Shown here in pieces: positions 15,942 to 54,973 of a stretch of 54,973 nt of DNA. How positions within the stretch are numbered: the stretch's first letter is position 1; each line of letters opens with the position of its first letter. The notes beneath the pieces were generated by a model. The model was not told the DNA's origin and searched no databases. It was given only the letters and a program-made list of their open reading frames with translations. A program made the position numbers and the translations under genes. This DNA is from a virus: the IMG/VR virus record IMGVR_UViG_3300046752_000076, positions 1-54,973 of that record, one strand, 5' to 3'.

Positions 15942-16577
15942 TCAAAACATGCAGTCGTCAAAAACAGCATTGCAGCTAAGAATTATTCTATCTTCATCTG
16001 CCATGTGTGGATTGGTGAAATGTGCCATATGCGCTGGAAAAACAACTAACATGCCCTTCTTAGGGTTAAGGGTGTACTTATCATTCCATAATGCAAAGCC
16101 ATTTCCATAAATCATATTGTAAGAAGATGCCGCTGGATTGCGAAAAACAATCTCACCAGTACCCTCTGAGGTTGCTCCATAAAACACACAAGCTAAATGA
16201 GCAAAGCCGTGAATATGCTCTGGTGCAAAATGACCATGACCATAAATCGAAACCCAAGAATTTGTAAGGTGAAACTTCGGGTCTGTATTTAAAGCGTTTG
16301 TGTACTTTTGACACTGCCTAACGATAGCGTGATGTATTGGATCAAAGCGTTTATCTTCGTCCAGTTTAAATCTACCATGACTTGTGTAACCATGTTTTTT
16401 GTAATCTTCGGGTGACTTCGCTCGTTCAAAGTTATGCCAAGCATGACTTATAAGCTTTCCGTTAGGGTCTTGGTCACGCAAATCATAAGCGTACTCGCAC
16501 AGATCGTCAGCTAATTTTTCCCCATCGTCTATGATTTCATGTAAGATAGGAAAGCTAAAAGGGTTCTCAAACCCCAT
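15942..16577 (-). CDS. 2OG-Fe(II) oxygenase family protein
   Basis: A 211-aa protein of the double-stranded beta-helix dioxygenase type. SWVSIYGHGHFAPEHIHG supplies the first iron His (EHIH), ACVFYGATSEGTGEIVFRNP is the following sheet, and GMLVVFPAHMAHFTNP gives the distal His with DRIILSCN supplying the Arg that binds 2-oxoglutarate. This order matches PF13759/TIGR02466-type enzymes found in many marine phages. The substrate is unknown; hydroxylation of a protein or DNA base are possibilities. It overlaps the 73-aa gene upstream by 11 bases and sits between fibre genes and the small basic proteins. Confidence 0.8.
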   Translation of the reverse strand: MGFENPFSFPILHEIIDDGEKLADDLCEYAYDLRDQDPNGKLISHAWHNFERAKSPEDYKKHGYTSHGRFKLDEDKRFDPIHHAIVRQCQKYTNALNTDPKFHLTNSWVSIYGHGHFAPEHIHGFAHLACVFYGATSEGTGEIVFRNPAASSYNMIYGNGFALWNDKYTLNPKKGMLVVFPAHMAHFTNPHMADEDRIILSCNAVFDDCMF

Positions 16578-16796: not shown

Positions 16797-17087
16797 TTAG
16801 TCTCCGTCTGGAAGATTGTTTACCTCTACTGCTTCAGCAGCAGTCTCAGTTGGTGATAACGGCATAGCTGGAACGTTACTGTAATCGTCTTCTATGTCGT
16901 CTGGAAAACTGGCTGGGTGATCGCGTAACGCTGTACGATACGCAACCCAATCAGTCTTTGCTGTATTGTATGCAGAGTAGCTTGTTGAGTTTTCCAAGAG
17001 CTTGATTATTTCTATGTCACTCTTTGCTAACTTATCATCTCTAGCCGCCCTCATGTTTTTCATAAGAAGTTCTTTATCAACAGCCAT
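16797..17087 (-). CDS. Tail-fibre assembly chaperone-like protein (96 aa)
   Basis: The middle of this 96-aa protein reads MRAARDDKLAKSD ... KTDWVAYRTALRDHPASFPDD. The R..RD..L..SD...W..YR.ALRD.P pattern is that of phage tail (fibre) assembly chaperone families such as PF16778. An acidic C-terminus follows. The ATG at 17087 overlaps the stop of the large glycine-rich fibre gene, and such chaperones usually lie right after their fibre. It likely helps fold or attach that fibre. Confidence 0.7.
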   Translation of the reverse strand: MAVDKELLMKNMRAARDDKLAKSDIEIIKLLENSTSYSAYNTAKTDWVAYRTALRDHPASFPDDIEDDYSNVPAMPLSPTETAAEAVEVNNLPDGD

Positions 17088-19231
17088 TAGCTTTCTCCGT
17101 TATATTTCATCGAAGGGTTCTCAGAGCAGTATGTGTACGGAAAGGATCGTGGCGTACCATCTGCGCCCTCACCCCAGATGATACGTACACCCCCAGGAGC
17201 ACCGTTGCCGCCGCCGCTGGAAGTTCCCGAACCACCGCCTCCACCGCCATGCGTACCGCCAACACGGACGCGATTGCCCCCGCTTCGTTCTTCTCGGCCT
17301 GTGAATTGGTTCTCGCCCCATGCACCTCGCGTACCGCCCGAACCACCGCCTCCACCGCCGTAGAAGTTAGCAGAGCTATTGTTATATGAAGTCCAATTAC
17401 CAGACGAACCGCCTAGACCAGAACCAGCATTAATATCTGATCTTGGTTTAACATTACCGTCTACGCCTCTCCAACCCTGACCATCTAGGCCAACGCCACC
17501 GCCGCCTCCTTGACCATAAGTTGAAGAATAGTTGTATCCGCAACCACCGCCGCCTCTAACACCTCGGTCACTGCTACCAGCCCTATCTTGATTACCTCTA
17601 TATCCAGCCGCACCCATTCCAACACGGCTACCGCCAGCATAGTAAGCAGCACCGCCACCATAGTGAAAGCCGTTTACAGAAGAACCGAGACCAGTGTTTA
17701 CTGCATAACCACCACCGTCACGACTGTCGTTTGCACCGTAACCACTTCCTTTGTTCCAATAATCAAGGCCATTTGGAGTGTGGTCCAACCAAGTTTTCTG
17801 ACCATTAGGATTGGAGGTTTGGTAGCCAGTGTAGCCACCACATTCACCGAATATAACAGTTTGACCGCTAGGGTTGACTATGAAACTTGATCCAGCACCA
17901 TAGCTTGAAACGTTGCTTTCACTTTGACGACCCAAGCCAACATAGACGTAATACACATCTCCTGGAGAACAGCTAATACCGTTCATCCAAGCAAGACCAG
18001 CAGCACCGCCTGCGTCGGAGGCCCAATTGTACGCACCCCCAGAACCGCCGCCTACTGCAACAGCACAAAAGGATGTAACTCCACTTGGCACTGTCCAGCG
18101 AAACTTTACTAATTGATAGTTACTGCCAGCACACCACCAAGTACTATTATCGGCATTAAAGCCCATGTAGCCATGTTTTGCGTAACCTGATGCACCTGTC
18201 AAATCGTCATAATAGGATTGGGTGGTGTAATTTATGGCATAGTGTGAACCCCAAGCACAGCCATATCCATCATTATATAAATAGGGAGAAGTGTCATCAT
18301 TTACATCATGAACACGTCTTAATGCACCAGAAGATTTAAGTGGATTGCAAGCGTTATCTGAAGTAGCTTGATCGGCAGATTTATCTTGAGTGTTTTGTGG
18401 ATTAAAGTTAGCATTATTCGGCCCGAAGTATCTTGCGCCGTAAGGGTCGCCGTATGCAATATTTTCAGTATAAGTTTTGGATACTGTTCCGTATGAGCCT
18501 AAATCTATTGTTATCGTTAGGCTGTGTGCAGAACTTGCTGCCACAATGTCACCAACATTTGTAAGATAAACTCGACCAGTAGCCGCGTCTATTTGTGGTG
18601 TTACGGCACTATTAAATCCAGATATGTTTGACATAGTAAAAACAGGAGTTGCATAACTGGTTGTCGTAGCAGCAAGGATATCTTGTTCGCCAGTAGTATT
18701 ACGAATTATTTGATTTCCAAGAGAGGCTGGGAAAGTAGGCGTAGTACCAGTAGGTACAATTTCAAGTTCATAGGTAAATTCGGTTTGTTCATCGGTGCGA
18801 CCATAAGGGTAATCTACCTTTACCTTGAAAGTATATTTACCTTCAGTGCCGCTACTAGGAGTGCCGTAAAAACGAGCCTCACCCATATCTTGATCGGTGC
18901 TGTCGCTATTTTCAGCCCACGAAATACCAGAAGGTAATCCCGTCGTAGGTGCAATAGCTTCATAGGTAACTTGACCAGACGCGGTTTCAAACGCATTATC
19001 TATGTAAAAGTATTGATCTATTGTAGGAATACTTACGCCAACATCGATCATTACTTTTACAGTAGCACCAGGTTCTATAAACCCACCGTGGGAAGCATTG
19101 TTTATGTTAGGGTGGCCTTTAGCTATCTTCACAAAGCCACCAGCCGCAGTAGAAGCCGCAGTAGTAGCCGCACCACCAGCTATATTATAGTCGCCACTGC
19201 TTATCTTATATGAACGTCTTTTCTTAGCCAT
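17087..19231 (-). CDS. Glycine-rich tail fibre / adhesin (714 aa)
   Basis: Residues 1-270 contain Ig/cadherin-like beta repeats (YTFKVKVDYPYGRTDEQTEF; SLTITIDLGSYGTVSKTYTE). From about residue 370 the protein is dominated by Gly runs separated by Ser, Asn, Tyr and aromatic residues (GGGSGGAYNW, GGGGGSGG, GGGGCGYN), ending in VRIIWGEGADGTPRSF. The Gly-rich WTVPSGVTSFCAVAVGGGSGG block resembles known glycine-rich adhesin modules that form polyglycine-II bundles at fibre tips. It is followed by a fibre-chaperone-like gene. The likely role is receptor binding; the receptor is unknown. Confidence 0.8.
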   Translation of the reverse strand: MAKKRRSYKISSGDYNIAGGAATTAASTAAGGFVKIAKGHPNINNASHGGFIEPGATVKVMIDVGVSIPTIDQYFYIDNAFETASGQVTYEAIAPTTGLPSGISWAENSDSTDQDMGEARFYGTPSSGTEGKYTFKVKVDYPYGRTDEQTEFTYELEIVPTGTTPTFPASLGNQIIRNTTGEQDILAATTTSYATPVFTMSNISGFNSAVTPQIDAATGRVYLTNVGDIVAASSAHSLTITIDLGSYGTVSKTYTENIAYGDPYGARYFGPNNANFNPQNTQDKSADQATSDNACNPLKSSGALRRVHDVNDDTSPYLYNDGYGCAWGSHYAINYTTQSYYDDLTGASGYAKHGYMGFNADNSTWWCAGSNYQLVKFRWTVPSGVTSFCAVAVGGGSGGAYNWASDAGGAAGLAWMNGISCSPGDVYYVYVGLGRQSESNVSSYGAGSSFIVNPSGQTVIFGECGGYTGYQTSNPNGQKTWLDHTPNGLDYWNKGSGYGANDSRDGGGYAVNTGLGSSVNGFHYGGGAAYYAGGSRVGMGAAGYRGNQDRAGSSDRGVRGGGGCGYNYSSTYGQGGGGGVGLDGQGWRGVDGNVKPRSDINAGSGLGGSSGNWTSYNNSSANFYGGGGGGSGGTRGAWGENQFTGREERSGGNRVRVGGTHGGGGGGSGTSSGGGNGAPGGVRIIWGEGADGTPRSFPYTYCSENPSMKYNGES

Positions 19232-19235
19232 GCTA

Positions 19236-21086
19236 TTATTCCTCTATGCCATACACTCGCACAATGATGTTGTCTTGATCTGTAGTAACCACAAGCTGTT
19301 CACCAGCAGATGCCATGATGCCAGTACGCTCTAAGATTTCATTTGAGGCGATTTCAGCTTTATCGAATTTGTCTCCTTGAGGAAGTTCAAAGAAACGCTT
19401 TTCACGCATGTAGTCTTCGCCGTTGAAGAAAAGATCGTACTTGCGATTTGCGTCACCATTTGTGTCTGTCCAGATGGTGTTCGTAACAAGCAGTGTTTGG
19501 TCATCGTGTGGTGCAGTAGATGGCTCGTCCACGATTGATACGGCTTGGCCCATGCCTGAGTGGTTGGAGCAATATGTGTAAAGTGTGTCTGGTGCGTTTG
19601 ACGGTACTGTCCACTCGATTACTCTTGCTTGACCGTTGTACGTTACGTGGTTGGTGTTCCAATCTGCTACCGTTGATGTGACTAATGTGTAGTCACTGGT
19701 AGATGATGGGCTACCCATTTGCCATATCATGCCGTCTGTGTACGCCGTACCACCAGCATGTGTGCCGTTCGCAGTAGTTGAGAAGTTCAGAGGGTGTCCG
19801 TTGTTGCTAGTGTCCATCTGATAGATACGATATGTGTGACCTCTAACAAAGGTAAGTTCTGCAACTGCACCAGTAACAGCGCCTTCAATAAACCTGTTCT
19901 GATTATCTATGCTGGCAACTTTTATACCGATTGGCTGCTTGGCGTAATGCTTGGATTGTGTCCAACTAACCCCAAGGTTTGATGTGCTGTACTTTTGACC
20001 GCCAGATACTACGAGTACGAAGTTAGTACCTTCGGCTCGAACATCGACAACCATGGCGTTCGTAACTCCTGATGGGAAGTCAAATACTGTGTAACCCGTT
20101 GTGGGCAGAGGTGAAGCTGTTGTGTAATCTGCGTATGCTACCTTGCCACCTGAGTAAGCTATGTAAATCTTACCGTCTGTAGCGTCTGTAGCAATTGCAG
20201 CCGCACCAATCATGTGACCGCTTACACCTGTTGGCGGTGACATAGAGTTTGATGTAAACTCAGCCTGTGCTTCGGGCGTATCGTCGTTCGATATGTAGTT
20301 GAAACCTGTTGAAGTACCAACAATGAAACGTTCTTCATTAGTTTTGACACCAGCAATCTTTGTGATAGCGCCTAGACCCCAAGTAAACGCAGTGTTGTAG
20401 GTAGCTGCTGCTGCTCGCCAGTCTGCAATTGTGTTCACAAGAGAACCAGAACTTCCTGGAACACCTTGTACGTACGCCATTGCGAAGGGGCCGTCTACGT
20501 TCGTAGCCCAAAGAATGTTATCGCCTGCTGTCATGCCGTAGTTGCTTGCTGAATTAGCTGCGCTACCACTGTCATTTACATAGTTGTCTATGTCATAAGT
20601 ACTGCCATTGTCAGGCGATCTTAATATTAATTCTGTCCCACTATGAAACCAGATTGGGTTTCCTAGACGTGTGGTATCTTGAACCATGTAATGATAGTCT
20701 ACACCGCCAACTGTTTGCTTAGTTTGGTACGCTAATATCTCTTTTGCAGCGATTGGCGTGGAAGCCGTGTTAGCTGACGCTGGTTCGACTGGCGTTGTTT
20801 TCATGTCTGTAACAAGAACTTCGGTTCTGTGACCGATCAAATCTAGCGTGTTCCCTGCATCTGCTGTTGTGTAAACCACAGAAGCATCAGAAGGTGTTGC
20901 GTCGTAATTTACGAAGTCACCTGTCTGGTATGTCTTGTCTGAGATATACACGTTTACGTTGGCTGCTACTGCACCATCGTTCAATACGTTTACGTTAAAG
21001 GTAGCCACTTTCGCAGAAGGTACAGTATATACAACTTCTGTGTCGCGGCTTCCGACTAATTTCTTTCCTAATAATCCGTTTGCCAT
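19236..21086 (-). CDS. Tail protein with cupredoxin-like domain (616 aa)
   Basis: The N-terminal part (LGKKLVGSRDTEVVYTVPSAKVATFNVNVLNDG) is a beta-sandwich seen in phage tail proteins, followed by propeller-like repeats (IYIAYSGGKVAYADY; FVLVVSGGQKYSTS). Residues about 412-515 form a cupredoxin domain: LTFVRGHTYRIYQMD, then GHPLNFS, and YTYCSNHSGMGQAVSI. The His, then Cys-x2-His-x2-Met, correspond to type 1 copper ligands. The C-terminal 90 residues (YDLFFNGEDYMREKRFFELP) resemble a tail anchoring domain. It belongs to the fibre block; the domain is common in marine viral structural proteins, but its use there is unknown. Confidence 0.75.
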   Translation of the reverse strand: MANGLLGKKLVGSRDTEVVYTVPSAKVATFNVNVLNDGAVAANVNVYISDKTYQTGDFVNYDATPSDASVVYTTADAGNTLDLIGHRTEVLVTDMKTTPVEPASANTASTPIAAKEILAYQTKQTVGGVDYHYMVQDTTRLGNPIWFHSGTELILRSPDNGSTYDIDNYVNDSGSAANSASNYGMTAGDNILWATNVDGPFAMAYVQGVPGSSGSLVNTIADWRAAAATYNTAFTWGLGAITKIAGVKTNEERFIVGTSTGFNYISNDDTPEAQAEFTSNSMSPPTGVSGHMIGAAAIATDATDGKIYIAYSGGKVAYADYTTASPLPTTGYTVFDFPSGVTNAMVVDVRAEGTNFVLVVSGGQKYSTSNLGVSWTQSKHYAKQPIGIKVASIDNQNRFIEGAVTGAVAELTFVRGHTYRIYQMDTSNNGHPLNFSTTANGTHAGGTAYTDGMIWQMGSPSSTSDYTLVTSTVADWNTNHVTYNGQARVIEWTVPSNAPDTLYTYCSNHSGMGQAVSIVDEPSTAPHDDQTLLVTNTIWTDTNGDANRKYDLFFNGEDYMREKRFFELPQGDKFDKAEIASNEILERTGIMASAGEQLVVTTDQDNIIVRVYGIEE

Positions 21087-21999: not shown

Positions 22000-22283
22000 T
22001 AGTTTTTATCTCCACACTTGCACTCTGGGCAATGAGCCATCTTTGCTAGTTGTGCTAGTCTCGAACCAGACATTCCTATTAAGTCCTCTGCGTTTGTTAC
22101 TCGTCCTGCCACGTCGCCAAGATCACGCTGTAGGCTTTCTCTAGTTTGTGATATTGCCCTAATAAGGTCTGCTATGTCGTCCCTTATAGGTTTCAATTCT
22201 TCTTCTAGTCGGGCGTTAATATATTCACGAGTATCAGTATCTATTTTCGAAGCCCAAGCGCTGCTAGGTACGGGGTTTGTCAT
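21999..22283 (-). CDS. Small coiled-coil protein with C-terminal CPECKC (94 aa)
   Basis: A 94-aa helical protein (TREYINARLEEELKPIRDDI) ending in HCPECKCGDKN, a short Cys cluster that might bind metal. Start overlaps the portal stop (ATGA), so it is coupled to portal translation. No membrane span. Possibly a portal-associated or assembly factor. Not recognised. Confidence 0.65.
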   Translation of the reverse strand: MTNPVPSSAWASKIDTDTREYINARLEEELKPIRDDIADLIRAISQTRESLQRDLGDVAGRVTNAEDLIGMSGSRLAQLAKMAHCPECKCGDKN

Positions 22284-24196
22284 TGTTTCGGAGCCTCTCT
22301 CATCGGTACTAGGTTGCCTCTTTCCACCTGACGCTCGATATTTTCTTGGGGCTGTACGTTTGCACCACGTAGTTTTTCCATCATCATCATCTGCTGTGAC
22401 GGGGTTGGCCCCTCATTTTGCTGTTCTTTTGATATTTTAAACTGATCGAGGTCTGATACACCCATACTTCGTATGGCTTCTTCGACGATTTTGCCTGAGT
22501 TATATTCCATCGCCATACCTGTTTCGTTAAGAGTACGAAGCATAGTAATCCAAGTTTCGGCGTTACGCGTGGGTTCGAGCGGCAGCGTTCCGTCTACGAC
22601 TAGGTATTCTATCTCTCCTTGTATGTCTTGGAGAGAGAAATCGAGGTATCCATCCTGCACCATATCAGCGACTTCGGATGCGCTATCACTATCAGCAATA
22701 CGGATAGAGCTTTGTGGCGCAAAGAAGTCTTGTATGTTGGCTACCATCATTCGTACCATTGGTCGTATTGAAGTTGCGGAAATCGTACGGGAGAGAACGC
22801 CTAACCTTTGCGAGCCTAACTGCGTAAGGCGCTGTATCTCTGTCGCCGTACGGATGCCGTCACTGGTTGGCATCCCTTGCTGCGCGTCAGAAGCGGCGGA
22901 TAGGCGTTGTTTGAGTTCACCCATTGCTTGAATATCTTGCCAATGCCCACGCGTAACGTCTGGTATTTGAGAAATAAATACGCCCTCACCTGGCTTTACA
23001 CCTGGCAACGTTCGTACGATGCCGTGAGGGTTCCTATCGATAAGATCGCCAATCGCTATTTGTGTGGGATCAACGAACATTAGATTAGTAAGGGCGGCTT
23101 GCACGTTATCGACACGCGAACGTAAGAGCCATGTTGCAACATCGTGTAACGGGAGGAGCAGATCGTACAACGATTGCGAATAGGTCTTATGGGCGTCGTG
23201 GTACAAGCCGCCTATAACGACAGGGAATTGTCTGCCGTATGGATTTAGCTGGCAACGGATAACTACGTTCTCGTCCAGAATTGTGACGCATAGCCACAAC
23301 TGATCTATCTGAGGTATACCTACCTCATAACCAGCTAACCTTACCCAAGTCTCATCGACAACACGGCTGTCACCTAATGCAAAGAAGGTTCCGCCGCTTT
23401 CACGTCGATTGCGTTCTGCTGGGTCTATACTTAGTCCTCGTCCTGCTTCTTTGTGCCATCTATGTCCGTCCCAGCCACCAGCAGGAGGCGTGAGGCGGTT
23501 GCGGAGCGACGGGTACTTCTTGAGTTTGGGATACATTCCCGTTTGGAGGAGGCTGTCGAAAGAAGAGAAATCAGAGAAGATGATGTATTGCATCCGTTCC
23601 CAGTCTCCCCACTGTACTCTGGGGTCGTGGAATACGCGTCTCGGATCGAAGTTTGTGATGTGGTTTGTTCGGCTCGAAGCATCCCACGTAACTTTCGTGG
23701 GTGCGTATCCGTACCGAATACTGTCAAGAAGGTGTTGGGCAAGGCGTGCTTCTCCTGCTGTTCTACGCATTTGCTGGTGTAGCAAACGCTCGATGATTGC
23801 AGATGATTTACGTGACTTGCGGTTTAAACCTTCAAGCTGAAACATTGGGTTACGGCCTGTCAGGGCGCTCATTAAATATGTAAGTACCGTGTCTGATATG
23901 GCACGGGTATCTGCTATAACTGCCTTTTCTCTAAACTGGGTAGCATGGGGATCGACATAAACGTCGTGCGCTCTATCTGCCTGTGTCCAGTGTTCATGCC
24001 TACGAGAAATGCGGTCATAGGACATCTGCATTGCCGAACGGACGTAATCCACTATACGCTGCTCCTGTTCTTCGGATAGCAGCATTGAAATGTCCTCATA
24101 AGCCATGAGGGCATTAGCGTGTTCGGATAAGTCTACGACGATGCCGTCGCCATCAGGAACATAATCCGCACGGTAATTTGTTGTAGTCAGTGCCAT
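22280..24196 (-). CDS. Portal protein (podovirus type, 638 aa)
   Basis: A 638-aa protein with portal features: an N-terminal helical part (EQRIVDYVRSAMQMSYDRIS), a middle WDAS...TNFDPRRVFHDPRV segment, the stem-loop region about residues 330-420 (LLPLHDVATWLLRSRVDNVQ; NLMFVDPTQIAIGDL), and a C-terminal Glu/Gln/Met-rich barrel-like tail (SQQMMMMEKLRGANVQ). It lies directly after terL with 39 bases between, the standard order. Its length is nearer to long podoviral portals than to HK97-type portals. It would form the dodecameric DNA gate. A GGACGAC motif sits in the gap before it. Confidence 0.85.
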   Translation of the reverse strand: MALTTTNYRADYVPDGDGIVVDLSEHANALMAYEDISMLLSEEQEQRIVDYVRSAMQMSYDRISRRHEHWTQADRAHDVYVDPHATQFREKAVIADTRAISDTVLTYLMSALTGRNPMFQLEGLNRKSRKSSAIIERLLHQQMRRTAGEARLAQHLLDSIRYGYAPTKVTWDASSRTNHITNFDPRRVFHDPRVQWGDWERMQYIIFSDFSSFDSLLQTGMYPKLKKYPSLRNRLTPPAGGWDGHRWHKEAGRGLSIDPAERNRRESGGTFFALGDSRVVDETWVRLAGYEVGIPQIDQLWLCVTILDENVVIRCQLNPYGRQFPVVIGGLYHDAHKTYSQSLYDLLLPLHDVATWLLRSRVDNVQAALTNLMFVDPTQIAIGDLIDRNPHGIVRTLPGVKPGEGVFISQIPDVTRGHWQDIQAMGELKQRLSAASDAQQGMPTSDGIRTATEIQRLTQLGSQRLGVLSRTISATSIRPMVRMMVANIQDFFAPQSSIRIADSDSASEVADMVQDGYLDFSLQDIQGEIEYLVVDGTLPLEPTRNAETWITMLRTLNETGMAMEYNSGKIVEEAIRSMGVSDLDQFKISKEQQNEGPTPSQQMMMMEKLRGANVQPQENIERQVERGNLVPMREAPKQ

Positions 24197-30434: not shown

Positions 30435-30463
30435 TTGACACATCGTACGTTGTGTTATATACG
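30435..30463 (+). promoter_or_regulatory. Sigma70-type promoter with embedded operator
   Basis: TTGACA at 30435-30440 and TATACG at 30458-30463 are separated by 17 bases. Within this, ACACA-T-CGTACG-T-TGTGT (30438-30455) is an 18-base palindrome with only one unpaired position per side, overlapping the -35 end. This drives the AAA+/VWA gene pair starting 25 bases later and looks repressor-controlled. Confidence 0.75.
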
Positions 30464-30487
30464 CTACATATTCAACAAGGAAATCAA

Positions 30488-32101
30488 ATGTCAAACTTAA
30501 CTATCAAACGAATTGCTGAGACACATAACGCTCGTGAAGCACAGAAAGTTCTTCGCGGTGTTATCCAACACAAGCTTCCGTACGATCACGACTGGTGGCA
30601 ACCAGTTGTCAACGCAGCTTGTGCGTCCCCAGCGATCAACAATACTCACCCAAAGTCACGTTCGATGAAGAGTGTCAGCGTCTCGCAGATACTTGATCGT
30701 ATGAACGTGGATGGCCTTACGTTTCTCATCAACTACTTCAATACGGTAGGCACGGAAGAGGCTGCGTTGCTTCTTGCAAATGACTTCGTGCATCTCGATA
30801 GCCACGCGAAGCTCGATGAGATTACGAGTTGGCCTTTCACGCAAGACCTCGCAACCCTCGATGAACTGTACGAGACTGATCTCGAAAACGATCTCATGGA
30901 AATCGGTGGCTGCGCTGTCGAGGCCGAGCCAGAAGCTGAGGCCGAGGCCGAGGTCGAGCCAGAGGTTGAAGCAGATACATCCGATACGTACTCCGTACCT
31001 GATGCCATTGCTTCGGCTGCCAACGTACTGCTTGAGGCTGCCACTGGCGGTGACGAGAAAGACTTGCAAGCACTGCTTGACGAGGTGGTTACGCTTCGCA
31101 AGAAGCCTGACTACGCTGCCGTGCCAGAGGTTGATGCTACAGGCGACATACCGTTCGGCGCACCCATACGAAAGAACGTACAGGATGTGTTCGGTATCAA
31201 GCACAAGATGCTAGACTTCGAGATCAATGCGTACGAGTGGGCTGGCACCAACCCTTTGGTGCCTGTTGTTGATGAGAACTATATCTTCAACGTCGATGCT
31301 CTGCATGACTGCTTGTGGGCGCGTAATAATAAAGAGAACGCGTGGCTATCGGGTCATACTGGTACTGGCAAGTCTACCTTTGTCGAGCAAGTATGTGCCC
31401 GTACTGGCTACATGTTGGTTCGTGTCAACATGGACAGCGGTATCGAGCGTGACACGTTCGTCGGTATCATGGGTCTTGAGGCTGATGAGAACGGCAACAA
31501 CATCAGCAAGTTCGTGGACGGTATACTGCCGAAAGCAATGCAGATGCCGTGTATTCTCCTGCTCGATGAGCTTGATGCTGTACGTCCAGATATTGCGTAC
31601 GTATTGCAGCCTGTCCTTGAGGGCAAGTCGTTACGATTGCTTGAGGATGGTGGCCGTATGGTTCACCCACATATGGACTTCCATATCTGTGCGACTGGTA
31701 ACTCTACTGGTCAAGGCGATAGCTCTGGTATGTACGCGGCTGCTGTCAAAATTCAGTCTCGTGCTCTGGTCAATCGGTTCGCTACTCACATTCGTATCGA
31801 TTACCTATCTCTTGCTGACGAGATGGCGCTGGTTCGCAACGCTGCTCCAACGCTGAGTGCCAAGTCGGAAGAGTACATCCAAGACTTCGTGATGAACTAC
31901 CGACAAGGCTTCCTAGATGGGACGATTGTAACACCCATATCACCTCGTAACACCGCTACGATTGGCAAGTACGTAGCCAGTCTTGAGGATCGCATTGGTT
32001 GCTTGGCTTCTGTCAAGAAAGCACTGCACATGAACGTGATGCTGACCATCGATGAGGCTGATGCCATTGCGGTAACTGGCATCATGGATCGCATATCATA
32101 A
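30488..32101 (+). CDS. MoxR/CobS-like AAA+ ATPase
   Basis: Start at the ATG at 30488 (MSNLTIKRIAETHNAREAQK), with AAGGA eight bases upstream. Residues 1-135 are a helical N-domain, 140-165 a Glu/Ala-rich linker, and 230-520 an AAA+ domain: Walker A GHTGTGKST (289-297), Walker B ILLLDELD (356-363), sensor ATGNSTGQGDSSGMY, then NRF and arginine-rich helices. The ATGN..GxGD..GxY pattern is typical of CobS, the cobalt-chelatase ATPase, and of MoxR ATPases. It sits directly before a VWA gene, the standard MoxR-VWA pairing. No other cobalamin gene is present, so a chaperone/remodelling role is as likely as chelation. Confidence 0.85.
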   Translation: MSNLTIKRIAETHNAREAQKVLRGVIQHKLPYDHDWWQPVVNAACASPAINNTHPKSRSMKSVSVSQILDRMNVDGLTFLINYFNTVGTEEAALLLANDFVHLDSHAKLDEITSWPFTQDLATLDELYETDLENDLMEIGGCAVEAEPEAEAEAEVEPEVEADTSDTYSVPDAIASAANVLLEAATGGDEKDLQALLDEVVTLRKKPDYAAVPEVDATGDIPFGAPIRKNVQDVFGIKHKMLDFEINAYEWAGTNPLVPVVDENYIFNVDALHDCLWARNNKENAWLSGHTGTGKSTFVEQVCARTGYMLVRVNMDSGIERDTFVGIMGLEADENGNNISKFVDGILPKAMQMPCILLLDELDAVRPDIAYVLQPVLEGKSLRLLEDGGRMVHPHMDFHICATGNSTGQGDSSGMYAAAVKIQSRALVNRFATHIRIDYLSLADEMALVRNAAPTLSAKSEEYIQDFVMNYRQGFLDGTIVTPISPRNTATIGKYVASLEDRIGCLASVKKALHMNVMLTIDEADAIAVTGIMDRIS

Positions 32102-32125
32102 TCAAATTTCAACAAGGAGTAACAA

Positions 32126-34105
32126 ATGTTTTCGCAAAATTCTGTATCTGCCCTAGCGACTGAGCTAGACAAGCTGTCTCGCATCATGGGTAACAAGAAC
32201 GTACGTACCACTTTCAACGGGAGTGGTGCTTACACCGATGGTCATACTGTCAACGTGCCAGCAATGGACATGGACGCGCAGCTTGACCCAACCCACCAAG
32301 CGATCATGCGTGGCTATCATATACACGAGGTCAGCCACGTTACTGACACTGACTTCAGCGTGTTCAACAAACGTGGCGTCAAGAAGATCAAGGACACATG
32401 GAACTGCTGTGAGGATGTGTTCGTAGAGCGCAAGGCTATGGAGAAATTTCCAGGAGCAAGGCGTTCTCTCCAACAGACAATCAATCACGTACTTGAGAAA
32501 GAGAACGAGCACTGGGCTGACAACCCAGAGAAGGATGAGAAGCGTCGAGAGAAGTGGTGGACAGAGATACCATACGCTGCTCTGCAAGTGGCTCGTAGGA
32601 AGATGGGGTACGACAGCGAGGCACTGGATCAGTACATTGATGACATGCCAAAGGAACTAATGAGAGAAGCGCGGAAGTTCTCCACGAAGATGATCGACGC
32701 TGACAATTCACATGATGCTCTGGCGGTTGCTCGTGCAATCGAGCGCCGCATGAAGAAGCTTGGTGAGGAGTACGTCGAAGAGGAACAGGAGAAGCAACAG
32801 CAAGGGATCGGTCAGCCCAACCCAGAAGGTGACGAGCAAGGGCGTATTGAGAACGGTAGCGATCAAAACTCTGACGACGGCGACAGTGATGGCGACGGAG
32901 ACGACAACGGTGATGGCGATGGCGACGGAACGAACGGTGGCGGCGACGGCGAAGACGGCGACGGCGGTGCTGGCGGTAGCGGCGGTGACGATGAAGACGG
33001 CGACGCTGACACTGGTACGAACGCTCAACCCATTACCATCGATCCCAACGAGGGTGGCTTCAGTACTGCTGATGCTGAAGAGCGTGCAAAGGGTGCGATG
33101 AACGCTGTCTTTGGCAAGTACTCAAGCAAGGATGCCAAACACGTTTGCACTGACAAAGCGGAAGTGTTCGACGATCACAAGCAAGTTTGGTCGTGGCTGT
33201 ATGATGTTGCCAATAGAACGGACAACGGTAAACGCGTCCACGCGCACATCAAAAACAACATTCAGGGACATAGGACTACGCCCCATGGGAGTACGCATCT
33301 TACCACCAGAAACAACACGAAGATTATGAATGAGCGTATGCCTGATGATGTTCGTTTGTATAGCGCTAGACTTGCACGTCTACTGTTGTCGCAAGAGGAC
33401 AGACGTAAAGAAGGTGGTCATCGTTCTGGCAAGATCGATGCGCGTAGGCTTTCACAAATCAAAGCAGGCAACACCAATGTCTTTGCACGTAACAGTGTAA
33501 CCAAGACTGCTGAGACGCGCATCATGGTTGCGGTTGATGGTTCGTCCAGTATGCAATGGGAGCCTACCGTTTCTGCAATACTGGCTCTCAACCAGTGCCT
33601 TGGTCGTGCCAATGTCAAGTTTGATATTGTCGAATGGGGTGGCGTATCATGGGGGCATCAAGACAAAGTGTTTGGAGACAGACCTTGGCTTGTCTATCAC
33701 AAGAAATCTTCCGACAACTGGCGAAAGATCAACACTGGCTTTGAGTTCCAGCCAGTCGGCGGCGACACACCCACGTACTCTAGCATGGTTGGTACTGCTC
33801 GTATTATGAGCGAGTGGCAAGAGCCTCGACGCGTGCTCCTGTTCCTTACTGATGGCAAACCCAATGGTAGGGAACATGAGAGCAAGGTGGTTGGTGATCT
33901 TGTCAAGGATATGTTCGCTGGCGGTATCGAAAGCTACGCCGTTTATATTGGACGGCAGCTCAAAGAAAATTCTGTTACGAGACAATTGTTGGACATGATG
34001 TTCGATGACAAATGGACAGAGTGTACGTTCGAGAAGCTTGGCGAGACATTGCTCGGCGGTATCGAGAGGCTGCTCATCAAAGGGGGTCACGCCCATGCCG
34101 CGTGA
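32126..34105 (+). CDS. CobT-like VWA protein with metallopeptidase motif
   Basis: A 659-aa protein in three parts. Residues 1-200 hold YHIHEVSHVTD (HExxH at 67-71) with NCCEDVFVERK about 25 residues later offering the third zinc ligand, a gluzincin-like pattern. Residues about 215-310 are a very acidic Asp/Gly linker (DSDGDGDDNGDGDGDG), as in CobT. Residues about 460-650 are a VWA domain: IMVAVDGSSSMQW (MIDAS DxSxS) and LFLTDGKPNG. It follows its AAA+ partner by 24 bases with AAGGAG before the ATG. CobT proper is a chelatase subunit; phage relatives with HExxH may instead be ATPase-driven proteases. Family firm, activity open. Confidence 0.85.
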   Translation: MFSQNSVSALATELDKLSRIMGNKNVRTTFNGSGAYTDGHTVNVPAMDMDAQLDPTHQAIMRGYHIHEVSHVTDTDFSVFNKRGVKKIKDTWNCCEDVFVERKAMEKFPGARRSLQQTINHVLEKENEHWADNPEKDEKRREKWWTEIPYAALQVARRKMGYDSEALDQYIDDMPKELMREARKFSTKMIDADNSHDALAVARAIERRMKKLGEEYVEEEQEKQQQGIGQPNPEGDEQGRIENGSDQNSDDGDSDGDGDDNGDGDGDGTNGGGDGEDGDGGAGGSGGDDEDGDADTGTNAQPITIDPNEGGFSTADAEERAKGAMNAVFGKYSSKDAKHVCTDKAEVFDDHKQVWSWLYDVANRTDNGKRVHAHIKNNIQGHRTTPHGSTHLTTRNNTKIMNERMPDDVRLYSARLARLLLSQEDRRKEGGHRSGKIDARRLSQIKAGNTNVFARNSVTKTAETRIMVAVDGSSSMQWEPTVSAILALNQCLGRANVKFDIVEWGGVSWGHQDKVFGDRPWLVYHKKSSDNWRKINTGFEFQPVGGDTPTYSSMVGTARIMSEWQEPRRVLLFLTDGKPNGREHESKVVGDLVKDMFAGGIESYAVYIGRQLKENSVTRQLLDMMFDDKWTECTFEKLGETLLGGIERLLIKGGHAHAA

Positions 34106-36981: not shown

Positions 36982-37992
36982 CTACGTAAGCGACATCACG
37001 GCTGCTTTGTGATCTTCGTATGTTGTGTTCATGTATCGCATGACCATCTTCAAATCACTGTGCCCAAGTAAATCAGCGATCACTTTAGGCGGTACGCCAT
37101 TACGTGCAAGACGTGTAGCGAATGTGTGGCGTAGTGTGTACGGACTTTTATTTATCTTTAGTTTATCCGTCACCTTACGCCAGTGATACCCGATCTGTTT
37201 GTTCGTTTCGAACGGTCTGCCTTCCAGCAAGAACGGATATAAACTTGGCGGTGGATCACTCTTTGGTATTGTTGCGAGTGCCCTGTCGTTAAGGGGCACC
37301 CGACGCTCCCTGAGTTCTCCGTCTGCTCCCTTATACGAGCCGAGGACTACCGTACTGTTGGTAAAGTCTACGGCTGTATAAGTTAAACGCATTGCTTCTA
37401 TTGGTCGTGCGCCAGTATGCAAAAGGAAAGTACACAATCGTCTCACGTCAGGATGCAAATCAGGAAAGATTAATTCTATCTCTTCCACTGACAGCGTATC
37501 GGTTTTGTGTTTTCCCTCTCGCGGCTTCTTTATTTTTATACTGTCACGTAACCCTAAAGATGCAGCAAAATTTAGCAGACCTTGTAATTGGTTTAAGTCA
37601 CGTCTGATCGTAGAGTTCGCATTGCCTTTGTTGACGTGTACCTCTTCAACATATTCCTCAATATCATTAAGGTCTATCTTGTTGACTTGGTAGTCACCAA
37701 AGTAATCCGTCAATCGCATTACGTAATCCACTGTAGACTTTGAGCTGCCTGTGTGCGGCGACTTTAAATATCTACGCGCTACGGATTTGAATTTGTTTTG
37801 TGCTCCATGAGTATTCTTCGCACCTAACTTAATCGCACCCGATAAAACCTTCGCTTCAAACTCAGCGCATAGGTCTTTAGCGTGGACGTAATCATGTGTA
37901 CCCAGAGTATGCCTTACTCGTAATCCTTGGAACGAGCCAATGGCGTGGTACATTTTACGACCAGAAATTTTTTTAACTTTGAATAACGGCAT
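36982..37992 (-). CDS. int: Tyrosine-family integrase
   Basis: A 336-aa tyrosine recombinase with the three expected parts: an N-terminal arm-binding region (FKVKKISGRKMYHAIGSFQG), a SAM-like core-binding domain (about 60-160) and the catalytic domain. Active residues: R196 in HTGARPIEAMRL, K221 in SYKGADG, Y285-x-x-R288-H289 in SPYTLRHTFATRL, H311 in LLGHSD and the nucleophile Y320 in MRYMNTT. All are present, so it should be active. AGGAG lies eight bases before the ATG. With the adjacent tRNA-Ser half it makes a site-specific integration module. Confidence 0.95.
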   Translation of the reverse strand: MPLFKVKKISGRKMYHAIGSFQGLRVRHTLGTHDYVHAKDLCAEFEAKVLSGAIKLGAKNTHGAQNKFKSVARRYLKSPHTGSSKSTVDYVMRLTDYFGDYQVNKIDLNDIEEYVEEVHVNKGNANSTIRRDLNQLQGLLNFAASLGLRDSIKIKKPREGKHKTDTLSVEEIELIFPDLHPDVRRLCTFLLHTGARPIEAMRLTYTAVDFTNSTVVLGSYKGADGELRERRVPLNDRALATIPKSDPPPSLYPFLLEGRPFETNKQIGYHWRKVTDKLKINKSPYTLRHTFATRLARNGVPPKVIADLLGHSDLKMVMRYMNTTYEDHKAAVMSLT

Positions 37993-48211: not shown

Positions 48212-48512
48212 GCTGCGCGACCTACCTTTGGATGAGGGTAAGAGACTAATTAACACTGACCGTAACAAAGAGTATGGCGAACCATACGATAACTTCTCTG
48301 ACATAGCTGCGATGATAACGGCTATACTGCGAAGCATCCTCAAAGATGGTGAGCGCGTACGTGTCGAGCATGTTGCAATGATAATGATTATCGTCAAGCT
48401 TTCGCGTATGACCACATCACCCGATAAGTTCGATAGTTGGGCAGACATTGCAGGCTACGTAGGAACTGGATGGGAAGCTATTGCTGTTGATCGGGGGATA
48501 AATACCGACTAA
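48204..48512 (+). CDS. DUF6378-like small helical protein (102 aa)
   Basis: A 102-aa protein with TDRNKEYGEPYDNFSDIAAM, GERVRVEHVAMIMIIVKLSR and FDSWADIAGYVG. The RN..YG...NF..IA...........D........K..R.......D.W.DIAGY pattern is one I know from a phage family of MazG-like all-alpha proteins (DUF6378). Some relatives may act on nucleotides, but no pyrophosphohydrolase metal motif is plain here. Its stop overlaps the stop of the convergent giant virion gene by 3 bases. Confidence 0.75.
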   Translation: MSKLRDLPLDEGKRLINTDRNKEYGEPYDNFSDIAAMITAILRSILKDGERVRVEHVAMIMIIVKLSRMTTSPDKFDSWADIAGYVGTGWEAIAVDRGINTD

Positions 48513-51500
48513 CCCCAACCATTACCCCAGCCTGATTTACTACCGCCCTTCTTGCTGCGCTCTCCTGCAACACTATCTACGATACCTTCTTTAGCCCAAG
48601 ACACGCCACCGAGAACTGGTACTCGTCCTACTACTTCTCGAACTGCTGCTCTCTTTTCTCCGTTGGTATCGTCTTGATCCCACCATGATCGAGCACCTTG
48701 AAGCACAGTCGTAGCGTCATTGAATAGCCCAACTGTCGGGCCACCAATTGTTTCTAAGTTTCTTTGTGCTCCGTACGCACCGTTATCAGATTGTGAAGCT
48801 ATGTCGTACATCAGCTCGCCAATAAGACCAAGACCACCTAAAGCTATCATACCATCAAAGTACCAACCCATAAGCATATCCATGTCTTCGTTTTCTTCAA
48901 AGGCAGTGGTCAGTGTTTCAGAAAGCTTTCGTTCACGTAAGGTAAACTCCCTGTTATCTTCACCACCACGACCTTGAATAATGTCTTTCGTACCGACAGC
49001 TATACCACCCATGGCAGGGCCAGCTACTAAAAGCGCAGCCAGTGGTGCAAGTCTATTGTCACTTTGTCCTACAAAAGCTTTTGCGAAGTTAGCGCCACGT
49101 TCAGCAGTAGTGTTACCTCTAAATGCTTCGCCAGCCACAGTGTTTATCAGTCTTGTCATCATCAAAGGATATGATTTCAACTGAAACGCAATCGCACCTA
49201 GCGGTGTTTGTGCCCATAACGGTATGTCATTTGGGTTAGGCGTAAAGATCATTTGGTTTGTCAGCTTAATCATAGAAGCCGAAACTTTATCAGCCATTGG
49301 ATGTTCGTTATTTGTAAAACGGCTTTCCATTATCATATCTAAATCAAGTGACTGATCTTGTACTAACTCACCTAAACCCTCTTCGTTAAGTATACGACGA
49401 GCAATACGACCAGCTCTAGAATTCGGACGCTGCTTTAAAATTCTATGCTGGGCTTTAACGTGTTCGTACGATACGGCAGCAGCCACATCTCTCATCATGT
49501 CTGTCCAGGGGGTAAGCAATGTGGCGTTAAAAAAGCCAGTCATAAACTGCGTACTATCTACCCCATGAGCAACCGTAAGTCTTTGATGCACTGCGTTTTC
49601 TGTAGCAGCACCGATATTTCGGATCATATCTCGATACTCTGGATCAACTGCAAACTTACGAAGAGATTTAACATATGCGCCCATATCACCCGTTCGTACT
49701 AACGGCAGCACTAGATCACCAAGAGACGTTAAGGTTGTGAACCCAAGTAGTGTAACTGCGTTGACCCCACGTAACCATTTAGAAGCGTTACGCATAGAAA
49801 ATGTTCCATGTACTCCATCAATAGGTCGTCGCATTGCAGAGTTCATAAAACCTTGTGCGTGCTGTAGGTTTCTGTTTGATGGTACGTCGGTAAGACCTTT
49901 TGTGTCGCCTAGCGCACTAGCTATTGCAGAAGCTCTTTTTTTAAAGTTGTTACGTAAAAGCTCTGCGTCTGGGTTGTCGTCAAGCCTATCACCAAGAAGT
50001 TCCATAATGTTAGCTTCTATCTCAGGTGCTGTTTTACCGTCCCTTGCCATATCAATAAGCTGTTGAGCTTTTTGTTCTGCTTCAAACTTATTTTTTATTG
50101 GCGCATAGAAATAATCATTTCTAAACGTCTGGGTTTTGGTGCCGTGATCTGTCATGCCTGATCGCGTCCAATTAGTTGTAATAATCTTATTGCTTGAAAG
50201 CAGCTTTCCAATAGCCTGACGAGCGTTCATTGGCTGAGACAGGATAGCCATGTAATCATGGTATCCATGTGCGCCTACTCCAAATTTTTCTGATATGTCT
50301 ATACGATGTTCTAAGTTGTCACTGTATTTAGTCATAGCAACGAGCAGATCATTCTCTAAAAACACACCCAAGCTATCAGGTACATCCATGTCAGCAAACT
50401 CTGGGAACTCGTCAAGGCGAATAAGTCTGGTGTAGTCTAAGTGATCTGACTGATCTCCTGCTTTATCGGCGTTACGTTTAAAGTTTTGCGCTGGGTTAGA
50501 GTACACACCATCTTCGTCTGTAAGTCTTTGCATTACGCGTCGAGCTGCCGCTTCTGCTTTAGCCGCTTCGCCTGTTCCGTTTCTTTCTGCCAAGAAATAC
50601 TTTTTAAGTCTGCGAACAAACTCTTCTGGGTCGGCTTGGATCAAGTCCTTGCGCCATACCTGTGGGAAATAGTTTTTCTTTAAGTTGCCAACAAGAGCAC
50701 CAGATGCACGCAATCGACCAGTAGCTTCGTCAAGATAACCACGTACATGGTCATATGTAATCCTTTCTGATGGGTCAAGTTCACCAACTTTATTTGCATC
50801 TCGTAGCGCACTGATAATTCGTAAGTGGCTGGCTGGCTGTGTCATACGGCGTCTTGGGTTGATGCCCATTGCACCCATTGCACTTTCAGCCATCATTTGT
50901 GGCCCTGTTCGAAAGTAGTTTGTAAGTTTATTTTTACTATCAGGTAACTCTTTTAGCATTTTTGTAAGAGGTATAATAAACTTACCCATACGTGCGTTTG
51001 TTCTTTCAAAGTGACCACCACTTCCATCCGTAGGCTCAAAGAAATTAGCAAGATTTCTTATACCCGAACGGTTCATTATTTTTGAGTTAGTACGAAACGG
51101 ATTGTAAATATTAGACTTACGTATTTCGGCTGCTGCATCAGCAGGCATACCTCTTCCCCTGGCAACTGCCACCATTGCTTCTAGCGTACGAGCAGGAACG
51201 CCAGCTTCTTCTAGTTCTCCTGCTGCTTGGTTTATAACTCGTATTGTGTTGTCACCTTCGACGGCTTGGATTATTCTACCGTTTACTGAGTGAAGCTGTG
51301 AACCTTCACCAATAACAGGTGTTGATGCTTCAAACACATCACTTCGTATGTTACGAACGTTTCGGTTAGACAGCATCATTTTAACGTCACCAAGATTTAC
51401 GCTAGTAAAACCAGCCTCTTGCATTGACTTCTTAAACTTACGAACGCCGCCCATAATTCCTACAACCTTACGTGCCATTTCTTCGGCAGTATGCACACCC

Positions 51501-54500
51501 GTAATTGCGTCAAGGTCGTTAGCTTCTCTGTTCTTACCTAGTGATCTCATTTGCCCGATTAGTGTAGTGATAAGATCATCTGATCCTGCCATGTTTTCAA
51601 TAAATACAGCAGGAGTTGTATCTCTTACAAAAACAGGTTCTACAGTTGTAGATACTTCAACACCTAATCCTTGCAATTCTTCGGAAAGAAGATCATCCAT
51701 TGTGTATAGTTTATCTATGTGGGCTGACGAAGAACTGTTGTCTAATCTGGCAGTATTAATCTTTGCCCTTGCTAAACTAATTTGATCGACCAGCTCTGTT
51801 GCATCTTCTTTTTTATCTACTGGTGCAGAAGATATTAAAGCCTCTCTTACGTTCTCCATCGTATTGCTTGGTGCTCTAGTTACATATTGACCAGAACCAA
51901 ACACACCATCTCTTACACCGTCGCGATAAAAAGGAATAACGCTGTCGCCAGTAAACTCTCGCACGGCGGCATACCCAGAAGCTGTGTAGTCGCTAATTAT
52001 TTCGTGAGAAAAGTCTTCAGCAAACTCTGCTGGTACACGGTCAACAAACCTAGTTCGAGGACTTCCTTTTGATGGATTGGCACTACCGATCATGTCTCCA
52101 TAGGCAGTGATGCCAGAAAATCTTTCTCTCGCAACAGGACTTTTAATCATGCCGTTGAGTACATACCCAGCAGCTTCGGAAGCGTCTTGCTCTAGCTCTT
52201 CCAAAAAGTCATCAAACAAGTCAGCATCTTCGCCATCCATTATTCTAGAAATAGATTTTAGCTGTGGCTTACTTGAGTTAATGTCGTTTACTTCAGCAAG
52301 TGTATCGGCAAAAAGTTTCTCTGGCGATATGTTAAGTACTTGAGATGCCTTAGATAATACATTTCGAGAAGCGTGCGTAATAACATTGCTAGAATACAAC
52401 GCTTCTCCTACGAACGTAATAGCTTGCGTAACATCATCGCTTCGTTGCAAATTTGTCGCTGCTGTTCGTACGGCTTTTCTGTACGAAGAGTACGAATTTG
52501 CGTCAATTGATTGTGGCAGGCTTTCTGACCCAAGCCGAGCCATCCTTGCTGTAACTGTTCTAGCAGCAAGTTCGGTGTCGTTGCTTCGGTGTGTAATGCC
52601 TCGGAGATACTCACGCATTTTCATTGTAGCATTTGATGGTATCCCATTCTCGAAAGACGTACCCATATCTTGTGATTGCTCGATTATTATAGCATTACTT
52701 ACAGGTGTGGATTGTCTAGCCTTTCGAGCCTGCTTTCTGGTACGCATTAAGTGTTTTAAAATATTAGTTGCTTGCTCTGGTGATGCGCCAAAACCCTTTA
52801 TAACCTGTCCGTCTGCTGACATAGCAAGGCCAAGAGTTATTTCTGGTTGCTGCACAGATACTGCTATACCCTGATTGCCCCCCGTTTTTTCCTTGGACTG
52901 CATTTTATTAAAGATCGCCTGCTCTTCTTGAGTAAGCACAACATCTTTTGTTTCGGTATTAACAAGATGCTTAACTCTATTAGATAGCTTCTTACCAAAC
53001 TCGGTTGGCTTACCGTCTTTACCTATCTGACGACGATACTCGCTAAGAGCTTCAGCAAGTGAGTAATTGTTTAGATCATTACCCTTAGTGGATTTTGTTA
53101 CCTCTCCTGCAAACTCTCTGGCGTTTACTTTACCCTGATCTTGCATAATAGTTTGCATAGTTTTCTTAAACTTAGCTCTATTAAGATTAGTGACGCGCTT
53201 TACTTTTTGCTCGAAGTTCTTGATCTTTTCTATCTTTGCAGGAGTGAAAGAGTTTGCTTGGCGAAGCGACAACACTACGTCTGAAAGCTTGGCTTCTGGT
53301 ATATCACCGTACTCAATGTCTAGGTATGCCTCATTGATTTCGTCAAGCTTACCCTCTGAATATCTCTCAAGACCTTTATCCCAAAGCTCGATAATGTCTT
53401 TTTCCATATCAGAGTGGAATACAGAACCACCAATAATACTATCATCGCCTGCTTCGCTAACGGTGTAATCTGTAGATGCAGTGATCTCGTTTATTTGTTT
53501 AGCGTAATCACTCATACGCTTATGGCCTTTGATTGCTTTAAAAGCACCAGTATACCTACCGATAAGTACTGTATCTGTTGGCGTAATCTTGCCGTCTACT
53601 GAGCTACGTCTTGCTGCAATACCACGCGCTCTTTGTGTCATCGTTATAGATGAGAAAGCGTTTGCAATAGACCTTGCGGCAAAGGCAAGTTTTGCTGGAT
53701 CATGTAAATCAGGGTATCCTTCACGCGCTGCTTTAAACGCATGGATGCCTTCTCTGATTTCCATATACCTTGCCTGCAATGCTTTACCCAGTTTTGAGCT
53801 TGCATCTTTAGGGTTTGTAAACCTTGTGCGTAACGCTTCGTCTTTGTTTGCAATCATTTTTTCAAAGATTGCTTCGTACTCTTTAGAAACAAAATGCCTG
53901 TTTGTAATGTGGTTCCATAGCTTCTTAATAAGATCAGCAGCTTTATCAAAAAAGCTCATAGGAGCTATAGGAGCATTGTATTTGTGGTGTGCATATGTCG
54001 CGAACTGATTTGCAAAAACTTCAGCCGCATTTTGTTTTGCATTAGCAACCCCTGCGCTTTTGCCATTTATTTGTACGAGGGGAGAATGTGCATCGAGCAA
54101 AGTTCCTTCAACCCTGTCAGAGACAAAGCCTCCGTCAAACTTACCGTTAGCGTAATAGTATTCACCAACCTGTTCCCAAAACTCTCTTTTAAGTTCTGGC
54201 GTCATTAAGTTATCGTAAGCCCAATGACCAAGTTCGTGCATAATTGTAAACGATCCAGTTATGCCAGTCTTTGTACCGTCACGATCCATTTTGTCAGGAT
54301 CAAGAAAGATGCGGTTAAAATCATCACCCATTATAACCGCGCCTTCAGCTTCGGCTTGTAGGTTTTCCATATAGTTCGGAGAATTTATAGTACGGTCTTT
54401 AAACGTTTCTGCCTTTGCAGAATAAAGACCATTTACGTTGTCATCCATCATAACTGATAAATCGTAATTTTTTAGCCGCTCAAATATTGGTGCTCGATCT

Positions 54501-54973
54501 GATGGAGATATTGCTCTTATCATTCTCTCAACGTGAGCAAACTGGGTTTTATTAAGATTAGTTGCTAATTTACGTAACTGATCTACAGACTTTTGAATAC
54601 CCTGTGTTGGCTTACGTATGCCAAAAGGAGCTTCGTTTCCTATTACTTCTAGGTAAGCGTTGATGCTATCTAGCTTACGTTCAAAATCTACTTCTTGCCC
54701 TCCAACAAAAGTTCTCCAATCAGAACCTTCAAGATCATTAAGCACATCATTCAAAGCGCCTATGCTTGGCTGAGAAGCTAAAAAGTCGTCTAATGTTTCT
54801 TCTACCACACCGCTATCAACAAGTCTCGAACCAATCCAAAGTCTATTGGCAAGCTGTTTACCCTCTGGTGTAGAAGCAAGTCTTTTAATATCTACAACCG
54901 TAGCTGCTATATCTTCGTAGTTCATCGGCCCTTTGGGTACATTCGTACGAACTTCTTTTGGAGCAGGCTGCGC
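48509..54973 (-). CDS. Giant internal virion (ejection) protein with HELGH metallopeptidase motif (open at right edge)
   Basis: The frame is open for 16 codons beyond an internal ATG at 54925 to the window edge, so it is incomplete at its start; at least 2,154 residues are present. Counting from that ATG, HELGH at 230-234 with GHWAYDNL following is a zinc metallopeptidase motif. Residues about 1000-1070 contain FYRDGVRDGVFGSGQYVTRAP, which faintly resembles an ADP-ribosyltransferase loop. Long coiled coils and helical parts make up the rest, and hydrophobic helices near the end (LLVAGPAMGGIAVGTKD; WYFDGMIALGGLGLIGELMY) could enter membranes. Size and plan fit polyvalent ejection proteins of podoviruses. 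The C-terminus ends Gly/Ser/Lys-rich. Confidence 0.8.
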   Translation of the reverse strand, partial: AQPAPKEVRTNVPKGPMNYEDIAATVVDIKRLASTPEGKQLANRLWIGSRLVDSGVVEETLDDFLASQPSIGALNDVLNDLEGSDWRTFVGGQEVDFERKLDSINAYLEVIGNEAPFGIRKPTQGIQKSVDQLRKLATNLNKTQFAHVERMIRAISPSDRAPIFERLKNYDLSVMMDDNVNGLYSAKAETFKDRTINSPNYMENLQAEAEGAVIMGDDFNRIFLDPDKMDRDGTKTGITGSFTIMHELGHWAYDNLMTPELKREFWEQVGEYYYANGKFDGGFVSDRVEGTLLDAHSPLVQINGKSAGVANAKQNAAEVFANQFATYAHHKYNAPIAPMSFFDKAADLIKKLWNHITNRHFVSKEYEAIFEKMIANKDEALRTRFTNPKDASSKLGKALQARYMEIREGIHAFKAAREGYPDLHDPAKLAFAARSIANAFSSITMTQRARGIAARRSSVDGKITPTDTVLIGRYTGAFKAIKGHKRMSDYAKQINEITASTDYTVSEAGDDSIIGGSVFHSDMEKDIIELWDKGLERYSEGKLDEINEAYLDIEYGDIPEAKLSDVVLSLRQANSFTPAKIEKIKNFEQKVKRVTNLNRAKFKKTMQTIMQDQGKVNAREFAGEVTKSTKGNDLNNYSLAEALSEYRRQIGKDGKPTEFGKKLSNRVKHLVNTETKDVVLTQEEQAIFNKMQSKEKTGGNQGIAVSVQQPEITLGLAMSADGQVIKGFGASPEQATNILKHLMRTRKQARKARQSTPVSNAIIIEQSQDMGTSFENGIPSNATMKMREYLRGITHRSNDTELAARTVTARMARLGSESLPQSIDANSYSSYRKAVRTAATNLQRSDDVTQAITFVGEALYSSNVITHASRNVLSKASQVLNISPEKLFADTLAEVNDINSSKPQLKSISRIMDGEDADLFDDFLEELEQDASEAAGYVLNGMIKSPVARERFSGITAYGDMIGSANPSKGSPRTRFVDRVPAEFAEDFSHEIISDYTASGYAAVREFTGDSVIPFYRDGVRDGVFGSGQYVTRAPSNTMENVREALISSAPVDKKEDATELVDQISLARAKINTARLDNSSSSAHIDKLYTMDDLLSEELQGLGVEVSTTVEPVFVRDTTPAVFIENMAGSDDLITTLIGQMRSLGKNREANDLDAITGVHTAEEMARKVVGIMGGVRKFKKSMQEAGFTSVNLGDVKMMLSNRNVRNIRSDVFEASTPVIGEGSQLHSVNGRIIQAVEGDNTIRVINQAAGELEEAGVPARTLEAMVAVARGRGMPADAAAEIRKSNIYNPFRTNSKIMNRSGIRNLANFFEPTDGSGGHFERTNARMGKFIIPLTKMLKELPDSKNKLTNYFRTGPQMMAESAMGAMGINPRRRMTQPASHLRIISALRDANKVGELDPSERITYDHVRGYLDEATGRLRASGALVGNLKKNYFPQVWRKDLIQADPEEFVRRLKKYFLAERNGTGEAAKAEAAARRVMQRLTDEDGVYSNPAQNFKRNADKAGDQSDHLDYTRLIRLDEFPEFADMDVPDSLGVFLENDLLVAMTKYSDNLEHRIDISEKFGVGAHGYHDYMAILSQPMNARQAIGKLLSSNKIITTNWTRSGMTDHGTKTQTFRNDYFYAPIKNKFEAEQKAQQLIDMARDGKTAPEIEANIMELLGDRLDDNPDAELLRNNFKKRASAIASALGDTKGLTDVPSNRNLQHAQGFMNSAMRRPIDGVHGTFSMRNASKWLRGVNAVTLLGFTTLTSLGDLVLPLVRTGDMGAYVKSLRKFAVDPEYRDMIRNIGAATENAVHQRLTVAHGVDSTQFMTGFFNATLLTPWTDMMRDVAAAVSYEHVKAQHRILKQRPNSRAGRIARRILNEEGLGELVQDQSLDLDMIMESRFTNNEHPMADKVSASMIKLTNQMIFTPNPNDIPLWAQTPLGAIAFQLKSYPLMMTRLINTVAGEAFRGNTTAERGANFAKAFVGQSDNRLAPLAALLVAGPAMGGIAVGTKDIIQGRGGEDNREFTLRERKLSETLTTAFEENEDMDMLMGWYFDGMIALGGLGLIGELMYDIASQSDNGAYGAQRNLETIGGPTVGLFNDATTVLQGARSWWDQDDTNGEKRAAVREVVGRVPVLGGVSWAKEGIVDSVAGERSKKGGSKSGWGNGWG

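Follow-up and report, generated by a model that had tools for sequence, protein, structure and literature searches.

The gene and its neighborhood

The stretch of DNA analyzed here (the window) is the whole of the IMG/VR virus record IMGVR_UViG_3300046752_000076, with a length of 54,973 nucleotides. It contains a gene for a 616-amino-acid protein, and part of this protein resembles a cupredoxin (Table 1). The genes for the portal protein and the terminase large subunit lie on one side of it, and those for a fiber-like protein and a tail assembly chaperone lie on the other. Because of this gene order, the 616-amino-acid protein is placed in the tail block, which bears out its description in the first-pass annotation as a tail-fiber-block protein. 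Close relatives of the same length are found in IMG/VR, mostly at 77–87% identity. The full-length protein has no Pfam family above the cut-off and no PHROG match, and its full-length AlphaFold2 model (pLDDT 38) is too poor for use. Searched by itself, the domain matches PHROGs that bear the names baseplate wedge subunit, wedge/tail-fiber connector, and tail fiber.

Table 1. Features of the window, with positions, strand, and the basis of each assignment.
Feature	Position	Strand	Basis
2OG-Fe(II) oxygenase	15942..16577	-	
Tail assembly chaperone	16797..17087	-	PF16778, E 3.7e-8; tail-fiber assembly PHROGs
Fiber-like protein with Ig-like and Gly-rich regions	17087..19231	-	He_PIG, E 8e-7; Gly_rich_2 just below cut-off
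616-aa tail-block protein, carrier of the domain	19236..21086	-	ORF list; same-length IMG/VR relatives
Cupredoxin-like domain, aa 408-520	19527..19865	-	Alignments A2 and A4; AlphaFold2 model, pLDDT 82
M512, candidate axial Met ligand	19551..19553	-	Alignment conservation
H509, second candidate His ligand	19560..19562	-	Alignment conservation
C506, candidate Cys ligand	19569..19571	-	Alignment conservation; sole cysteine in 616 aa
H431, N-terminal candidate His ligand (GHPLNFS)	19794..19796	-	Alignment conservation
Portal protein, SU10 type	22280..24196	-	PF23899, E 8e-25
CobS-like AAA ATPase, then CobT-like protein	30452..34105	+	phrog_249, E 4e-52; PF06213, E 0.0013, below cut-off
Tyrosine-type integrase	36982..37992	-	phrog_1, E 2e-51
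2138-aa ORF	48509..54925	-	

Several other genes of the window deserve mention. The 2OG-Fe(II) oxygenase gene lies directly behind the tail genes. The CobS-like gene is followed by one whose product is only weakly CobT-like, and from their sequences the two are possibly a cobalt-chelatase subunit pair carried by a phage. The presence of an integrase suggests that the phage may be temperate. A frame of 2138 amino acids matched neither Pfam nor PHROG within the limits applied.

A candidate copper site in a probable cupredoxin domain

The motifs GHPLNFS and YCSNHSGMG, which the first-pass annotation had located within residues of about 412–515, occupy residues 430–436 and 505–513 of the protein. 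They provide H431, C506, H509, and M512, and these follow the order His...Cys-x(2-4)-His-x(2-4)-Met of a type 1 copper site. A C-x2-H-x2-M motif with an upstream histidine at the matching distance is found in about 0.015% of shuffled versions of the 616-amino-acid protein. Type 1 copper proteins have this arrangement, a Cys-His-His-Met set with the spacing C-x2-H-x2-M; amicyanin has the same spacing as the phage domain, whereas that of plastocyanin is C-x2-H-x4-M.

In the AlphaFold2 model of the domain, built from an 80-row alignment (pLDDT 82, pTM 0.76), C506 is at a strand end, and the loop that leads into the last strand contains H509 and M512. In the Greek-key beta-sandwich of a cupredoxin, the Cys, His, and Met are expected around this loop, and on this point the model agrees. 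Plastocyanin-type cupredoxins are alike in this respect, with the cysteine at a strand end and the histidine and methionine in the next loop, and the order and type of ligands are the same in the plastocyanin, pseudoazurin, and amicyanin family (PF00127). However, the plastocyanin-type proteins are small soluble electron carriers, while the phage domain is embedded in a tail protein and, unlike PF00127 proteins, has its own conserved S-rich and GTH-GG stretches. The window domain also has a helix-containing insert at about residues 470–486, which shorter relatives lack.

The relationship to cupredoxins is traced through intermediate sequences. A search of the PDB with the single sequence gave no match, and the window domain did not match PF00127, its score not reaching the gathering cut-off; of the 14 members tested, one matched at E 0.029. 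When the family profile was compared with the PDB, the best eight matches were seven plastocyanins and one pseudoazurin, individually weak (E 0.05–0.16), and the copper ligands lined up with each other in the alignments displayed. Five cellular bridge sequences exceed the cut-off of Pfam Copper-bind, and the family profile matches them in the same place. In hhalign, this bridge set aligned with the phage family at E 2.6e-12, and the direct comparison with 15 ordinary cellular cupredoxins was weak. From these sequence comparisons, we conclude that the domain is homologous to cupredoxins by way of the bridge chain, without direct membership of PF00127. The plant At5g54830-like domain (PF25489) was tried as another candidate and discarded, its weak match being below the cut-off in all members tested.

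The structural comparisons are modest. In VIA-align, the top entries were AcoP cupredoxin structures and copper nitrite reductase at Z 4.8–5.3, one dystrophin-complex entry scored 4.9, and Ig-like and other entries scored at most 4.0, all values at which (Z below 8) a match may reflect merely a common arrangement. The best solved neighbor, AcoP of Acidithiobacillus ferrooxidans (7z3i, 7z3f), aligns at Z 5.3 over 90 residues; it differs in having 17% identity and in being a respiratory-chain protein rather than a virion protein. Foldseek of the model against the PDB gave no significant match (mostly antibodies), and in BFVD the model matched cyanophage tail proteins. Another structural match to the model in BFVD (E 3.5e-4) was A0A481Z6J5, a 124-amino-acid giant-virus "beta-sandwich protein" from Pithovirus LCPAC302.

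Conservation and loss of the four ligands

The four ligands are the sole invariant columns of alignment A4 (80 divergent rows, 37% mean column identity), an alignment that excludes degenerate copies and whose genome matches came from a pattern containing C-x2-H-x2-M. Two sets that are free of ligand selection agree with this conservation. With a ligand-free query taken from the middle segment, 77 distinct copies were obtained among the matches listed, and all four ligands are present in the 76 that are complete (76/76). With whole-domain tblastn, the phage records gave 25 copies with the His-Cys-His-Met set (HCHM). The exceptions were EGTL in P-SSM7, KGTL in S-CAM22, K-D-H-V in MED4-213 (its last position is gapped in the alignment), and a copy in S-H9-1 whose second half does not align; each of these phages has an intact copy as well. 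The degenerate copies of P-SSM7 and S-CAM22 lie in baseplate proteins. Such ligand-less copies beside intact ones would be natural negative controls for copper tests.

The manner in which the ligands are lost is also informative. Clustering at 70% leaves 81 representatives, with 76 HCHM and one each of DCHL, NSNL, EGTL, KGTL, and HCHK, the last being a cellular bridge sequence. A single ligand was lost in one case compared to 13 expected under independent loss, and so few were seen in none of 20,000 shuffles. In the degenerate phage copies (NSNL, EGTL, KGTL, DCHL), several ligands are gone together and the rest of the domain is kept, although P-SSM7 and S-CAM22 are related, so that these multi-loss events number about three independent ones. 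In the subset that was not ligand-selected, 27 of 29 representatives are HCHM, and the two degenerate copies put the ligand columns in third to sixth place for conservation, after the core F and G. In proteins closely related to that of the window, the ligands are fixed and the positions between them vary (CSNHSGM, CHSHSGM, CNAHSGM, CHAHSGM, CHVHANM). The ligand codons show synonymous changes, and the pairwise dN/dS of the domain is mostly about 0.05–0.15. The pattern shows that selection keeps the four residues together.

One could consider the domain to be a beta-sandwich spacer only, in which the four residues were inherited from a copper-binding ancestor and are kept, metal-free, for packing or stability. 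The ligand-less copies in phage baseplate proteins imply that the fold works without metal, and the adjoining gene also encodes Ig-like and Gly-rich structural regions, both of which suit a spacer. A spacer would, however, be expected to lose its ligands one by one, which is not the trend observed, nor does it account for ligands that stay while the residues between them vary. This possibility is weakened because the copies that lose the site drop several ligands together and retain the rest of the domain, and it is now considered unlikely. The "beta-fold only" alternative in the first-pass annotation is disfavored for the same reason.

A site that holds a metal other than copper, such as zinc or iron, and thereby stabilizes the domain would also explain a ligand set that behaves as a unit, since this suits any metal. 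Here the argument against it comes from the ligands themselves, which have the type 1 copper arrangement, and from the nearest relatives with solved structures, which are blue copper proteins; a different metal is therefore regarded as distinctly improbable. The reading of the domain as a cupredoxin with complete type 1 ligands, proposed in the first-pass annotation, is strongly supported by the conservation, the near all-or-none loss, the plastocyanin profile match, and the Copper-bind bridges. It is very probable that residues 408–520 are a cupredoxin which the virion displays and whose predicted type-1-like copper site is intact.

Distribution in marine phages and cells

The domain is widespread. 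A pattern scan with the window domain confirmed 402 IMG/VR stretches, and scans with the N-terminal half and with the middle of the domain confirmed at least 598 and at least 565, respectively. In a consensus-domain search, 59 of 50,697 phage records carried it. The carriers infect Synechococcus, Prochlorococcus, Pelagibacter, and Methylophilales, along with a few uncultured records; they include myophages as well as short-genome pelagiphages and are marine wherever a record was opened and gave its source. The domain is hosted by tail-fiber, baseplate, and other virion proteins. The first-pass annotation notes that such domains occur in marine phage structural proteins; the one in the window has hundreds of homologues and is common to hundreds of marine phages. 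The same domain is contained in phrog_708, phrog_677, and phrog_27200, which are cyanophage baseplate or tail-fiber families whose names make no mention of copper or cupredoxin; outside the domain, the 616-amino-acid protein shows no relationship to these families at the thresholds applied. Cultured carriers of the conserved site include P-SSM2, S-TIM5, and HTVC028P.

In the cellular genome collections, 60 loci also encode the domain, on contigs of which some may be phage-derived. Cellular copies occur in open reading frames of about 6,000–12,000 amino acids of Flavobacteriaceae and Photobacterium. At five loci, the domain forms the end of lipoproteins that, judging by their sequences, have collagen-like repeats in Poseidoniales and cadherin-like repeats in Gammaproteobacteria. 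Phages and the surface proteins of marine cells may have exchanged the domain.

A proposed role at the host surface

The role of the domain, to go by its context, is most likely that of a copper-bearing extracellular adhesion or surface module. The apo-protein would fold in the host cytoplasm with its cysteine free and reduced. Because phage proteins fold in the cytoplasm, copper loading is placed after lysis, when the metal would be taken up in seawater or at the host envelope. With a limited copper supply in both seawater and cytoplasm, the site might lack a metal altogether or contain a different one. Once loaded, the domain would serve for adhesion or locking at the surface of the host and not for electron transfer. 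Adhesion is preferred because no redox partner was recognized among the neighboring genes examined and because the relatives in cells are carried by lipoproteins and giant adhesin-like proteins. The explanation as a whole, in which H431, C506, H509, and M512 form a mononuclear copper site in an adhesive surface module of tail-fiber and baseplate proteins that is loaded after lysis, is on balance a probable one.

Iron offers a point of comparison. HxH iron sites have been described in the tail fibers of phages such as T4 (gp37) and Alteromonas phage R22Y, and they share with the phage domain a metal in the tail fiber (predicted here) and the same ecological argument (PMC11705849). The fold and the ligands differ, and no HxH motif is present in the 616-amino-acid protein or in three neighboring tail-block proteins. 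By analogy with the published proposal for iron in tail fibers (PMC11705849), the tail copper could be a Trojan horse recognized by a copper-uptake receptor of the host, a role for which tail-fiber and baseplate proteins would be suitably located. No result here indicates a copper receptor, the hosts are diverse, and baseplate copies need not contact a receptor; this use of copper is highly improbable.

Significance

The literature found on metal in marine phage tails discusses iron only (PMC11705849). A search of the open-licence literature found no report of a cupredoxin or blue copper in cyanophages, phage tails, tail fibers, or virions, and none of a copper measurement on such tails; this absence is weak evidence. 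The type of domain is known, and, as far as checked, there is apparently no description of a complete, selected, putative copper site in tail proteins that are widespread in marine phages. The finding gives a functional lead for domains of tail and baseplate proteins whose annotation names no function. To judge from these sequences, marine phage tails may well carry copper. A broader picture, in which a large share of marine tailed phages have type 1 copper in their tail fibers and baseplates and use it in host contact, with virions as a seawater reservoir of strongly bound copper, is for now a doubtful one. Since the site is present in cultured phages, the copper content of virions, the dependence of adsorption on copper, and any action of phages as copper ligands would all be directly measurable.
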